This document shows positions 13 through 11,912 of a DNA stretch of 12,152 bases, piece after piece; position 1 is the stretch's first letter, and each line of letters starts with the position of its first letter. Origin of the DNA: Candidatus Desantisbacteria bacterium CG1_02_49_89 (GTDB lineage Bacteria > Desantisbacteria > UBA1551). The notes under the pieces are model-generated. The model was not told where the DNA came from, did not search any database, and worked only from the letters and a program-made list of their open reading frames with translations. Both the position numbers and the translations under genes were made by a program. The stretch spans positions 1 to 12,152 of the forward strand of contig MNUP01000046.1 of the NCBI GenBank assembly GCA_001871075.1, written 5' to 3'.

Positions 13-49
13 GAGATTGCCACGCTCCCTTTGGTCGCTCGCAATGACA
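13..49. repeat. dispersed ATTGCGA-type palindromic repeat, half copy
   Basis: The block reads GAGATTGCCACGCTCCC then TTTGGTCGCTCGCAATGACA. On the minus strand it begins TGTCATTGCGAG and ends GGCAATCTC. The same TGTCATTGCGA ... GCAATC architecture recurs at 2885-2960, 11424-11462 and 11839-11912, so this is one arm of a dispersed repeat family of this genome. It is non-coding here. The rest of 50-119 shows no recognisable feature. Confidence 0.75.
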
Positions 50-7266: not shown

Positions 7267-7315
7267 CTGCTAAATGTGTTACAGTATTAGCATATTTGCA
7301 ACACTTGTAGCAGGA
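7267..7315. repeat. inverted-repeat site, copy 1 of a 49-bp direct duplication
   Basis: This is an almost exact copy of 7403-7451, offset by 136 bp and differing only in a few bases near the centre. It has the same imperfect inverted-repeat layout: CTGCTAAATGTGTT on the left and AACACTTGTAGCAGG (7300-7314) on the right. Here the position of the downstream TATAAT reads TACAGT and no consensus -35 precedes it, so it does not look like a working promoter. No Shine-Dalgarno or gene follows it. It is best read as an upstream partner binding site of copy 2, or a remnant of a duplication. Confidence 0.75.
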
Positions 7316-7392
7316 CTTTTAAATAACTCTATTTGGTATTGTGAGTGAGATAGGTAGTAAAAGGATGATAAAGTCATTATTTTTGACATAAT

Positions 7393-7421
7393 TTGACAAA
7401 ACCTGCTAAATGTGTTATAAT
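7393..7421 (+). promoter_or_regulatory. consensus sigma-70 promoter of the AAA+ gene
   Basis: TTGACA (7393-7398), a 17-bp spacer and TATAAT (7416-7421) match the bacterial housekeeping consensus at every position. The predicted transcription start is near 7428, giving a leader of about 30 nt that includes the Shine-Dalgarno. An inverted-repeat site overlaps the spacer and -10, which implies repression by occlusion. The distance to the gene is right, and no other gene lies between. Confidence 0.8.
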
Positions 7422-7451
7422 ATCAGCATATTTGCAACACTTGTAGCAGGA
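7402..7451. promoter_or_regulatory. inverted-repeat operator-like site, copy 2, over the -10 and Shine-Dalgarno
   Basis: Arms CCTGCTAAATGTGTT (7402-7416) and AACACTTGTAGCAGG (7436-7450) pair at 13 of 15 positions around a 19-bp centre. The left arm ends at the first base of TATAAT. The right arm overlaps the beginning of the Shine-Dalgarno AGGAGG (7448-7453). A near-identical copy lies 136 bp upstream. Two sites in direct orientation, one over a strong promoter, suggest cooperative binding by a regulator or by the AAA+ protein itself. Which protein binds is inference. Confidence 0.6.
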
Positions 7452-7460
7452 GGAGGGAAG

Positions 7461-8681
7461 ATGGCCTGGGAATATCTTGGGTTAAATAAGGAACCGTTTT
7501 TATCGATAAACCCATTGTTAATGCAGGAAGAATTGGCCTATTTTGTAAACCGTGAGAAAGAACTCCAGCTTTTAAAAAGGTATTTCGATACCAACATTTC
7601 TCAGCACATTTTGATTTCAGGCAAAGCAGGCCTAGGCAAAACTTCTTTGGTTTGCTATCTAGGGATTCCCAGAGAGAATGAAGATTTTATACGAATTAAT
7701 CTATCTGAATCTAAACAACAAGAAGGCCAGATCCTTGATTTGATAACTCATGATTTGCTAGAATTTGGTTGCAGATTGAAAATAAAAGGGGCAGAGAATC
7801 TTGGGGAAGATTTTTTATATTGCAAAAAAGAAACAGAAGAAATGGCAGGTGATATCAAGGCAGGAGTTATTATAGAAGGAAAAGTATCTTCCAAGAAAGG
7901 AACAGAAAAAACAAGAAGGCGTCTACCATTTGATACGGAACAGATACTGGGTAAAATATTAGTCGCCGTAAAAAATCACATAAAACACCCGCCTATTATC
8001 TTTATTGATGAAAGTGACCATCTGCCGGAATCCACTCAGGAGACTATTCTCTTACAAATAGAGTCACTTTTAGTATCTAACAAGTGCAAAGTTTTTTTTA
8101 CAACACGAAAAGAAATTGAGAATATTTTTCTTGGAGATGTAAATTCTAAGTATAGATCAAGATTTACTGATATTATCCCATTGGGACCTATAAAGCCATC
8201 AGCAGGTAGCATGGCAAAATTGATTTTGGAGAAGAGATTTGAACCTTGTGCTGGTGAAAATTATCAATATCCATTTGCAGAAGAAACTAATATATTTCTT
8301 GAAGACGTTTCCAATGGAAGCATCCGGGAACTTTTAAGATATACATCTTTTATTCTTAGCGAAGCAAGCGCTAGCAAACTGCTAAAGCCAATTAACGTCG
8401 ATTTCGCTTTTAAAGTTTTAAGTGAAAAACAACTTTTAGCATCCGGGATTGAATCTAAAGAATATCAAATAATGAAGATATTGGAATTAAAACCTTTGTC
8501 GCCATCAGATAAAATATTGCAGGAAAAAACACTCTTCAAGCGAGCAACCTTAAATATTTTGCTTACTGAATTAGATAAAAAGGGTTTTACGCAAAAAATA
8601 TGCGAAGGTAAAAAAATTCTACACAAACTGACACCGAAAGGAAAATGGGTCCTTAAGAGTTATGAAATTACAAGGCTATAA
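7461..8681 (+). CDS. Orc1/Cdc6-like AAA+ ATPase with C-terminal winged helix
   Basis: This is a 406-residue protein with no membrane segment. The N-terminal WEYLGLNKEPF is followed by NREKELQLL (30-38), the lead-in typical of Cdc6/ExeA-type AAA+ ATPases. Walker A is GKAGLGKTS (54-62), Walker B IIFIDESDHL (179-188), sensor 1 FFTTRKE (212-218), a likely arginine finger lies in KYRSRF (230-235), and sensor 2 is SNGSIREL (284-291). The charged stretch 110-158 is an insertion between Walker A and B. Residues about 330-400 look like a winged helix (ending KKILHKLTPKGKWVL), a DNA-binding module. Relatives act in replication initiation, transposon target choice or DNA-linked signalling, and the exact role here is unknown. 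ATG 7461 was chosen over the in-frame ATG at 7410 because AGGAGG (7448-7453) sits at ideal spacing and 7410 lies upstream of the -10. Base composition is clearly more AT-rich than the glycan genes, consistent with transfer. It is monocistronic. Confidence 0.82.
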   Translation: MAWEYLGLNKEPFLSINPLLMQEELAYFVNREKELQLLKRYFDTNISQHILISGKAGLGKTSLVCYLGIPRENEDFIRINLSESKQQEGQILDLITHDLLEFGCRLKIKGAENLGEDFLYCKKETEEMAGDIKAGVIIEGKVSSKKGTEKTRRRLPFDTEQILGKILVAVKNHIKHPPIIFIDESDHLPESTQETILLQIESLLVSNKCKVFFTTRKEIENIFLGDVNSKYRSRFTDIIPLGPIKPSAGSMAKLILEKRFEPCAGENYQYPFAEETNIFLEDVSNGSIRELLRYTSFILSEASASKLLKPINVDFAFKVLSEKQLLASGIESKEYQIMKILELKPLSPSDKILQEKTLFKRATLNILLTELDKKGFTQKICEGKKILHKLTPKGKWVLKSYEITRL

Positions 8682-8914: not shown

Positions 8915-8939
8915 GCTTTCCCACTTTACTCGCAACTTT
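8915..8939 (+). repeat. left terminal inverted repeat of the IS
   Basis: This 25-bp sequence, beginning GCTTTCCCACTTTACT, is the exact reverse complement of 10358-10382. The 3 bp outside it (AAG) match the other end only at the middle base. Confidence 0.92.
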
Positions 8940-9017
8940 AGATTAGGATTTATATCTTTTTTGTTATTAAGGGCGTCTTGAAAAATAGATGTTGTTTATG
9001 GCGCGCATTTAATTTTA

Positions 9018-9046
9018 TTGCTCTTTGACTTAAAGTGTGGTAGAAT
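9018..9046 (+). promoter_or_regulatory. candidate transposase promoter (extended -10)
   Basis: TTGCTC (9018-9023), a 17-bp spacer and TAGAAT (9041-9046) are preceded by TGG (9038-9040), forming an extended -10. It lies inside the element, 28 bp before the ATG, with a strong Shine-Dalgarno AAAGGAGGG (9056-9064) between. Confidence 0.5.
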
Positions 9047-9073
9047 TTCTCTAAGAAAGGAGGGATTCTACCA

Positions 9074-10309
9074 ATGCAAAACAACGAGAAAGAACCGAAG
9101 GTCAAGATTCTCAGGACAAGGGTTCCTAAAACTGTCATTTGTCCCTTTTGTGGAATGAGACAACCATTTAGAAAAGAAACCGGTTACTGGCGAACCATAA
9201 AGGATATGAACCTTGATGAGCCAGTGCTACTAAAAATCCAGATGGTGTGTGCTAAATGCTTAAATCCTGTCTGTAAAAAGGGAAGTTTCAGTCTGCCTGT
9301 CTCTGGAATAGAAAAATACGCAAGGGCAACAATTAGGCTTAAAAAGGAATCCGTTGCTACAATCATCGAGGATAATTCCACACTTCCCAGGGCAGGGAAA
9401 AGATTATCGCGTTCATTTAATACCACAGGCAGTAAATCCAGTATTGACCGCTGGAAACATCGAGAAGCTGATAAATACGATATTAAGGACATCATTGCCA
9501 GACTTGATTTCTCCGGAGTACTTTCTCTTGATGAATACTGGCCGAGGCGTTCATCCACTCCTGATTTCATAAGTGGTGATGGACTTAAGTGCAGGATCCT
9601 TTATGCCGAGAATGTCCCCGAGAGAAGCTACAAATATGTAAAGGCTCATTTAGAGAAAATAAAGGAATTGGGAATTAATCCCTGGCTGATTATATTTGAT
9701 ACCTGGAAGCCTTTTCCTGGGGCAGCAAGGGAAGTTTTTCCAAATATCCTTATCCAGATTGACTACTTCCACATTATGAAGGTAGTGCACTGGCACTTAA
9801 GGAATGCCCTGGCTGAATACCGCAAGATGCTCAAAGAACAGGAGAATAGCCTTCATAAAGTTCTCTGGAAGAACAGAAAATTAATTCTAAAGAATCTGGA
9901 TGAACAAACTCAAGAACAACGCATAGAAACCAGGTTTACACTCTCTTTGTTTAAGGGAACGGTAGTAGAGGATATTATTACTTTCAAAGAGTGGATCCGT
10001 GATATTTTCCTCTGTAGCAGAGACAAACAGGATGCCCTTAACAGAAGAAACAGGCTTTACGCCGATAAATGGCATTTAAAGAACAGGCACTTCCGTTTTA
10101 TAATGAAGTATCTTATGTCTCATGTCTTTAACTACATGACCACTTATTTAGAACACCCTGGAGTCCCAAGGTCAGGTAACTCAGAAAATCTCATCAGTGT
10201 ATGGCGCCAGATGGAATCAGTGCGCTACGGATTTAAGAGTAACAAGGGCGCCCTGGACCACCTTAAACTCTACCAAATTTCCAAGTATTTAGAGGGCAAG
10301 TTTCCTTAA
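9074..10309 (+). CDS. ISL3-family DDE transposase
   Basis: This 411-residue protein catalyses excision and insertion of the surrounding element. An N-terminal zinc ribbon is visible as CPFCG (23-27) paired with CAKC (59-62) and C67, and serves to bind the element ends. The catalytic acidic residues can be placed by family pattern: D153 in LSLDEYW, D209 in IIFDTWKPFPGAA, and E371 in SGNSENLISVWRQM. The ISL3-typical stretch IQIDYFHIMKVVHWHLRNAL (228-246) follows the second Asp, and VRYGFKSNKGALDHLKLY (383-400) closes the domain. Length is in the usual range of the family (about 400-430) and the frame is intact. The start at 9074 is fixed by AAAGGAGGG with a 9-nt spacer. Composition is intermediate between the AT-rich AAA+ gene and the GC-richer glycan genes. 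Confidence 0.93.
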   Translation: MQNNEKEPKVKILRTRVPKTVICPFCGMRQPFRKETGYWRTIKDMNLDEPVLLKIQMVCAKCLNPVCKKGSFSLPVSGIEKYARATIRLKKESVATIIEDNSTLPRAGKRLSRSFNTTGSKSSIDRWKHREADKYDIKDIIARLDFSGVLSLDEYWPRRSSTPDFISGDGLKCRILYAENVPERSYKYVKAHLEKIKELGINPWLIIFDTWKPFPGAAREVFPNILIQIDYFHIMKVVHWHLRNALAEYRKMLKEQENSLHKVLWKNRKLILKNLDEQTQEQRIETRFTLSLFKGTVVEDIITFKEWIRDIFLCSRDKQDALNRRNRLYADKWHLKNRHFRFIMKYLMSHVFNYMTTYLEHPGVPRSGNSENLISVWRQMESVRYGFKSNKGALDHLKLYQISKYLEGKFP

Positions 10310-10357
10310 AACACGAAAAAATGAGCTAAGTATAGCTATTTCAAACCATTATGTTAA

Positions 10358-10382
10358 AAAGTTGCGAGTAAAGTGGGAAAGC
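10358..10382 (-). repeat. right terminal inverted repeat of the IS
   Basis: This is the exact 25-bp reverse complement of the left end (8915-8939), reading AAAGTTGCGAGTAAAGTGGG onward on the + strand. Confidence 0.92.
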
Positions 10383-10541: not shown

Positions 10542-11798
10542 ATGAAGAAGCCGAACGTAATACTTGTAACAAGCCACGACACAGGCACTCACTTCGGGTG
10601 TTGCGGGGACAGGTCCGTAAAGACACCGAACATAGACAGGATCGCGTCGCAGGGCGCGCTTTTCACGGACAATTTCTGCACGACACCGCTGTGTTCCCCT
10701 TCAAGGGGCAGTATTATCACAGGCAGGTATCCTGTTTCAAACGGGCTTATGGGCCTGGTGAACAGGGGATGGGACATGCCTGACACCGAAAGATCCCTTC
10801 CCCATTACCTGGAAGACGCGGGTTACTCGACCTATCTTTTTGGTTTCCAGCACGAGCGCACAGACCCGGCGAAAAGCGGTTACGAAAATATCGCCCGCAC
10901 GAACGGGGTTCTGTGCAGGGAAGTGATAGATGCCGCCGCGCAGTTCGTAAGTGAAAGAAAGGATAAAAAACCCTTTTTCGCCGCGATAGGTTTTTTTGAA
11001 ACTCATTTGCCGTTTAACAACACCAGGTATAAAGGCGCAGACCCTGAAAAGGTGTGGGTCCCGCCTTATCTTGTTGACTGCCCGGAAATAAGGAGCGAGG
11101 TCGCGAAATTCCACGGCCTTGTGCGCGAAGTTGACGATAACGCCGGGAAACTCGCTGACGCCGTCAAAAAGGCCGGGTTGGAAGAGAACACTGTTTTTAT
11201 ATACACGGTTGACCACGGCATAGGTTTTCCCGGAGCTAAGTCCACTCTGTATGACCCGGGCATAAAGACCGCGTTCATGGTCAAATGGCCTGCGGTGATC
11301 CCGGAAGGCACGGTTATCAGCAGGCTTACCAGCAATATTGACCTTCTGCCCACCTTACTGGACCTGCTGGATATACCTGCTGACAGGAGCATACAGGGCA
11401 GGAGCCTTGTTCCTTTATTCAACTGTCATTGCGACCCCGATGCTGTATCGGGGGAAGCAATCTATGCCCAGAAAGACTGGCATGATTGCTATGACCCCAA
11501 ACGCTGCGTAAGGACGCGCGAGTTCAAGTATATAAGGAATTTTGAAAAGGGTCCCATGCTTGTTTTGCCTGAAGATATATTGAACAGCCCTGCCGCGAAA
11601 CACGTGCATGAAAGGTTCAAAGGGCAAAGGCCTGCCGAGGAACTCTACGACCTTAAAAAAGACCCGGACGAGTTCAACAACGTCGCGCAAGACCCTGGAT
11701 ACGCGCAGGCCAAAAAGCAGCTGCGCGCGAGCCTGGATTCCTGGATGCTAGAAAATAACGATTATTTGCGCGGCATGATAGTAACAAGTAACAAGTGA
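10542..11798 (+). CDS. formylglycine-type sulfatase, N-sulfoglucosamine sulfohydrolase-like
   Basis: This is a 418-residue type I sulfatase with no signal peptide. The activation motif C51-S-P-S-R55 followed by GSIITG is canonical. C51 would be oxidised to formylglycine by a maturase (FGE or anaerobic sulfatase maturase) not present in the window. Metal ligands include D13 (in TSHDTGTH) and the VDHGIGFPGAKSTLYDPG segment (224-241). That opening and that segment, together with HDCYDPKRCVRTREFKYIRN (314-333), recall heparan N-sulfatase/SGSH-like enzymes, which remove N- or O-sulfate from amino sugars. Two oddities stand out. Residues about 295-307 are encoded by an in-frame dispersed repeat, and the last residues VTSNK plus the stop are encoded by a 7-bp tandem array. 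AAAGG (10531-10535) supports the start. Location is probably cytoplasmic, acting on imported oligosaccharides. Confidence 0.88.
   Translation: MKKPNVILVTSHDTGTHFGCCGDRSVKTPNIDRIASQGALFTDNFCTTPLCSPSRGSIITGRYPVSNGLMGLVNRGWDMPDTERSLPHYLEDAGYSTYLFGFQHERTDPAKSGYENIARTNGVLCREVIDAAAQFVSERKDKKPFFAAIGFFETHLPFNNTRYKGADPEKVWVPPYLVDCPEIRSEVAKFHGLVREVDDNAGKLADAVKKAGLEENTVFIYTVDHGIGFPGAKSTLYDPGIKTAFMVKWPAVIPEGTVISRLTSNIDLLPTLLDLLDIPADRSIQGRSLVPLFNCHCDPDAVSGEAIYAQKDWHDCYDPKRCVRTREFKYIRNFEKGPMLVLPEDILNSPAAKHVHERFKGQRPAEELYDLKKDPDEFNNVAQDPGYAQAKKQLRASLDSWMLENNDYLRGMIVTSNK
11424..11462. repeat. dispersed ATTGCGA-type repeat inside the sulfatase coding region
   Basis: TGTCATTGCGA (11424-11434) opens the block and GAAGCAATCT (11454-11463) closes it, the same ends as in the intergenic copies at 2885 and 11839. 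Between them CCCGATGCTGTATCGGG is a small hairpin. It is read in frame as Cys295 onward (CHCDPDAVSGEAI) without breaking the gene. Confidence 0.75.
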
Positions 11799-11838: not shown

Positions 11839-11912
11839 TGTCATTGCGAGCCCGAAGGGCGTGGCAATCCAGATACAAGATTGCTTCGTCACTTTCGTTC
11901 CTCGCAATGACA
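11839..11912. repeat. dispersed ATTGCGA-type palindromic repeat, full copy
   Basis: It runs from TGTCATTGCGAGCCCGAAGG to TTCCTCGCAATGACA, with the internal halves GGCAATCC and GATTGCTTCG. The two outer 12-mers are exact reverse complements. It sits in the spacer before the rhamnosidase-like gene, 31 bp before its ATG. Confidence 0.85.

Follow-up and report, generated by a model that had tools for sequence, protein, structure and literature searches.

CGTC-tagged REPs are small palindromes of 20-40 bp in which a CGTC/TGTC (or CCTC) tag precedes a stem of 8-9 bp beginning with AT and carrying a loop of 4-5 bases, followed by a short unpaired tail, most (not all) of these tails fitting CCA (Di Nocera et al., 2013; PMC3733652). 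They are dispersed, mostly intergenic, often paired and occasionally located in genes, a dedicated transposase was not found for them, and RPE-4 and RPE-6 of R. conorii are included among them (PMC3733652). The same authors considered units within genes to be possibly neutral by sitting in linkers or loops (PMC3733652). In-frame fusions of Rickettsia RPEs have been reviewed (PMC10969869), and the earlier note on this DNA was right that in-frame capture of palindromic repeats is known there; it has also been described in several other species. In-frame capture of REPs by genes is thus known, though rare, and what is new in the present case is a probable replacement with little net change in length.

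In the window, which is the whole stretch of 12,152 nucleotides analyzed here, positions 11424-11462 carry a genuine copy of the palindrome TGTCATTGCGA…GCAATC that is dispersed in this genome, and the sequence at 11424-11463 is TGTCATTGCGACCCCGATGCTGTATCGGGGGAAGCAATCT. This REP-like unit, recognized by pattern matches, folding, and in-frame translation, lies on the forward strand within a sulfatase gene and consists of a TGTC tag, an ATTGC/GCAAT outer stem, and a CCCCGAT..ATCGGGG inner stem. In its fold (-18.2 kcal/mol, z -3.5), an internal loop separates an outer stem of 5 bp from a GC-rich inner stem of 8 bp. Positions 11424-11462 are translated into 13 codons giving CHCDPDAVSGEAI, residues 295-307 of the sulfatase, with TGT as codon 295 and ATC as codon 307, and the unit is open in all three forward frames. 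The earlier note had claimed that the genome's ATTGCGA-type repeat lies with both ends within the sulfatase and is read there without stop or frameshift, which we can confirm: the arm pattern matches, with 0 matches in controls, and the unit stands in frame inside the 418-aa ORF (10542-11798). The support which that note asked for, a match of the DNA to many intergenic copies, is given for the arms and the architecture (146 exact arm matches) but not for the full 39 bp; the exact inner hairpin occurs in 1 of 155 sampled strict units, and the nearest relative elsewhere in the genome (C147) shows 85% identity over 41 bases.

The pattern TCATTGCGA-N(5-30)-GCAATCT has 4 matches in the window versus 0 expected (200 shuffles), and GTCATTGCGA-N(5-30)-GCAATCT has 146 exact copies genome-wide (2.48 Mb), while the reversed-pattern control has 0. 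The hairpin repeat is present in about 150 copies across the genome, mainly between genes. Our unit census covered 898 kb (36% of the genome) in stretches picked mainly around listed copies, a sampling that inflates the copy density but leaves the interior-to-intergenic contrast unaffected. Only the sulfatase copy, 1 of the 155 strict units in this sample, lies well inside a long ORF, versus about 105 expected at random, given that 68% of the sampled sequence is well inside ORFs of at least 150 codons. Looser matching in the same sample gave 184 matches versus 3-5 for scrambled patterns, and the remaining ORF overlaps were nearly all at ORF ends, in short ORFs of doubtful status, or loose matches no more frequent than in controls. 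A second interior copy was not found in the 898 kb; L227:6086 was rejected as such because both of its arms contain a mismatch and 3-5 matches of this kind arise with loose control patterns. A unit at L177:10954-10989 codes for the last residues of an 850-codon ORF and ends 9 bases before the ORF end, and this repeat may supply the C-terminus of that ORF.

The present family shares with CGTC-tagged REPs the CGTC/TGTC tag, the AT-starting stem, the dispersal, and the pairing, and it resembles them in its 146 exact copies, many facing pairs, and near absence from the interior of long ORFs (1/155). ATTGCGA is preceded by GTC in 99-100% and by TGTC in about 86% of the 155 units, TGTC being the tag of the sulfatase copy. 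The stem layouts do not clearly agree when compared by description, 8-9 bp with a 4-5 base loop in CGTC-tagged REPs against 5 bp, an internal loop, and 8 bp in the sulfatase copy, and the tails differ, since GCAAT in the 155 units is followed not by CCA but by C and then T (79%) or C (21%). As with CGTC-tagged REPs, no dedicated transposase came to light: no unit was found within about 1.5 kb on each side of the 10 matches to Y1 tyrosine transposase (Y1_Tnp) genes in this genome, and a repeat-linked transposase was accordingly rejected (0/10 loci). Paired inverted units dispersed through the genome are also reminiscent of the REPIN/RAYT system (GTAG REPs), but the tag of the present family is TGTC, not GTAG. 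Like Rickettsia RPEs, the unit is a palindromic repeat read in frame in a gene that is probably still functional; however, RPEs have been reviewed as insertions of about 150 bp, whereas the sulfatase unit appears to replace native sequence with a net gain of about 3 residues, and it is the only such case in the 898-kb sample. An Rfam search of the window gave no match, and a literature search for the ATTGCGA motif gave nothing specific.

Two pairs of repeat-family units, neither assigned to a strand, lie in the window, a facing pair just 3' of the sulfatase stop codon (11840-11911; -34.4 kcal/mol, z -6.6) and an intergenic pair upstream of the other sulfatase gene (2885-2961; -38.2 kcal/mol, z -6.4); in each, one half was detected by pattern and the pair by folding. 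A further copy recognized by pattern matches at the contig start (14-48, reverse strand) is half of an 83-bp facing pair; this pair, identical in its arm and inner sequences, is repeated many times (e.g., C7:29126-29208, C19:113-195, and window 14-48), often at contig ends, where assembly breaks. Not only within ATTGCGA arms but also in several unrelated outer palindromes, the GC-rich inner hairpins CCCCGAT..ATCGGGG and CCCGCCA..TGGCGGG are found repeatedly (e.g., L223:8674, L184:465, L202:13736, and window 11436 and 7113), as if hairpin modules were swapped between frames.

The host of the unit (10542-11798, forward strand, 418 aa) is assigned as an S1-type sulfatase from Pfam (PF00884/PF16347), a PDB match, and homologue alignment. 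It matches PF00884 with an E value of 2e-42, its best PDB sequence match is an S1_8A sulfatase, and the CSPSR maturation motif at residues 51-55, in agreement with the C-x-P-S-R of S1 sulfatases, is intact. In an alignment with 13 homologues, 39 columns are invariant; the query alone deviates at 3 columns that are invariant otherwise (Y21C, R156L, and L381V), a number within the 0 to 4 of such private changes in the homologues. Judging from its sequence, the gene looks functional, without sign of a dead gene. An AlphaFold2 model made from a thin alignment of 10 sequences has a mean pLDDT of 61, and its overall fold agrees with sulfatase structures (4mhx, Z 30.3, rmsd 4.1, 349 aligned). Residues 295-336 are under 50 in pLDDT, and in the low-confidence part the model has a short helix at 290-293 and then coil including the unit stretch, so that a loop position of residues 295-307 is plausible at the low confidence of the model there, in agreement with the alignment.

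Whether the unit lengthened the protein was judged from 23 aligned homologues by counting the residues between the conserved Gly286 and the aromatic residue at 308. This number is 18 in 16 homologues, 19 in 5, 17 in 1, and 14 in 1, and it is 21 in the query. The earlier note had named as support that homologues would be without 10-15 residues at 295-307, which is contradicted by the 21 of 23 homologues having 18-19 residues; of the roughly 13 residues that the repeat was said to add, 13 are indeed encoded in frame, but the net gain is only 2-3, with the native loop apparently replaced. The closest homologue (G046, 51% identity) has 18 residues in this interval, 3 fewer than the query, and reads GRDYKPREEI where the query has CHCDPDAVSGEAI. 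The loop, located between an SLxPL helix and an [IV][FY]A strand, is variable in sequence among homologues. The four closest homologues (G046, G028, G282, and G373) come from genomes in which the repeat has 0 copies, and no strong match to the sulfatase was found in one genome of the same order. A 13-residue insertion needs an ancestor with about 8 residues in this interval, which is seen in no homologue, and the unit would therefore occupy the place of about 10 native codons. We are fairly confident, from this comparison of sequences, that the 39-bp unit took the place of about 30 bp (~10 codons) of native loop, either by replacement or by insertion and compensating deletion.

The right arm of the unit (GAAGCAATCT, 11454-11463, forward strand), examined by homologue alignment and at the DNA level, also codes for a [DE]-x-[IV] motif. 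The last codons of the unit, GAA GCA ATC (E-A-I), coincide with the usual [D/E]-x-[I/V] motif of the family, and in the homologue L079 GCAATCT occurs natively at this position, so part of the right arm may be native, and the arm may have served as an anchor for the exchange. With the codon usage of this genome, native A-I-[YF] would read GCAATCT in 6.2% of cases, and native E-A-I-[YF] would read GAAGCAATCT in only 3.6%, so that the microhomology idea is plausible but not compelling.

From the family membership, frame, loop length, and in-gene rarity observed above, we infer the order of events, mechanism, and neutrality as follows. A single unit of 39-40 bp, belonging to a family like the CGTC/TGTC-tagged REPs that had spread in intergenic DNA, would have entered the sulfatase gene and replaced about 10 native codons, with a net gain of about 3 residues. 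The exchange would most likely have been anchored by short homology between the right arm GAAGCAATCT and native E-A-I-[YF] codons, through template switching or short-patch recombination, while insertion followed by a compensating 30-bp deletion would give the same product. Three features may have allowed the unit to persist, namely its length of 13 codons, the lack of stops in any of the three forward frames, and its arrival in a loop whose sequence varies. The closest homologue, at only 51% identity, is too distant to reveal the empty site or the order of events. Overall, we consider it quite likely that a single REP-like unit entered the sulfatase as a tolerated replacement of variable loop codons.

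Chance resemblance of native loop codons to the repeat, for which one might cite the family-typical motif encoded by the right end, is left with next to no probability: the unit combines both arms with the TGTC tag and a perfect inner palindrome of 7 bp, the strict pattern controls gave 0 matches and led to its rejection, and distant repeat-free relatives already do without the residues of the unit. The earlier note would have taken the same residues in repeat-free homologues as a sign of such chance resemblance; the repeat-free closest homologues do not have CHCDPDAVSG and share only the final [D/E]-x-[I/V] motif. Plain in-frame insertion, by which the unit would have added 13 residues to an ancestor with a very short loop in the manner of Rickettsia RPEs, draws on the clean boundaries of exactly 13 codons and on precedents described as in-frame insertions (PMC10969869; PMC3733652), but we regard it as improbable, since the shortest of the 23 homologues has 14 residues where about 8 would be needed.

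As to the fate of the protein, an early pseudogene, broken by the repeat and open in frame only through recency, would fit the departures at Y21C, R156L, and L381V. We think this very unlikely with CSPSR intact and no stop, and private changes are as many (3) in one homologue and more numerous (4) in another. Selection of the unit in the enzyme, e.g., as a new two-cysteine loop altering substrate binding or stability, is hardly more convincing; the unit keeps the frame of an intact gene open and is the sole sampled copy tolerated within a gene, but the loop is variable among homologues and the inner sequence is common to none of them. Between a function of the unit in the enzyme and neutrality, neutrality is the more likely, and the unit is probably a tolerated replacement without function there.

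The arms of the repeat are present in 86 of 386 genomes sampled across the domain, and the repeat itself is therefore widespread. The genome G062 has 405 copies, and in 800 kb of it there were three interior matches, one of them convincing: at L261:1075-1095, a unit of the same family is translated as part of a low-complexity linker, in the frame of a 484-aa ORF. Interior copies were not found in 400 kb of G172. The in-gene copies in these two genomes and in the present one are too few for a general rule on replacement versus insertion.

The present case adds a sulfatase of a sparsely sampled bacterial lineage to the known instances of in-frame capture of palindromic repeats and suggests that such capture can overwrite a protein instead of lengthening it. 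A replacement with a possibly homologous arm offers a small clue to how tagged REPs move. That REP-like palindromes in general enter genes via short-arm exchange, that is, homology-anchored replacement and not insertion, seems to us doubtful; if true, it would account for constant arms combined with an inner hairpin that differs widely from copy to copy genome-wide, and the units would be exchangeable loop cassettes for proteins.

A transposase gene of ISL3 type, flanked by perfect inverted repeats of 25 bp (GCTTTCCCACTTTACTCGCAACTTT), lies at 8915-10382 a short way upstream of the sulfatase gene and forms with these repeats an insertion sequence. Two near-identical palindromic segments (CTGCTAAATGTGTTA .. 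GCAACACTTGTAGCAGG) are located at about 7267-7316 and 7402-7450 of the window, one just upstream of the gene for an AAA-type ATPase (ORF 7410-8681) and the other at the start of this gene.
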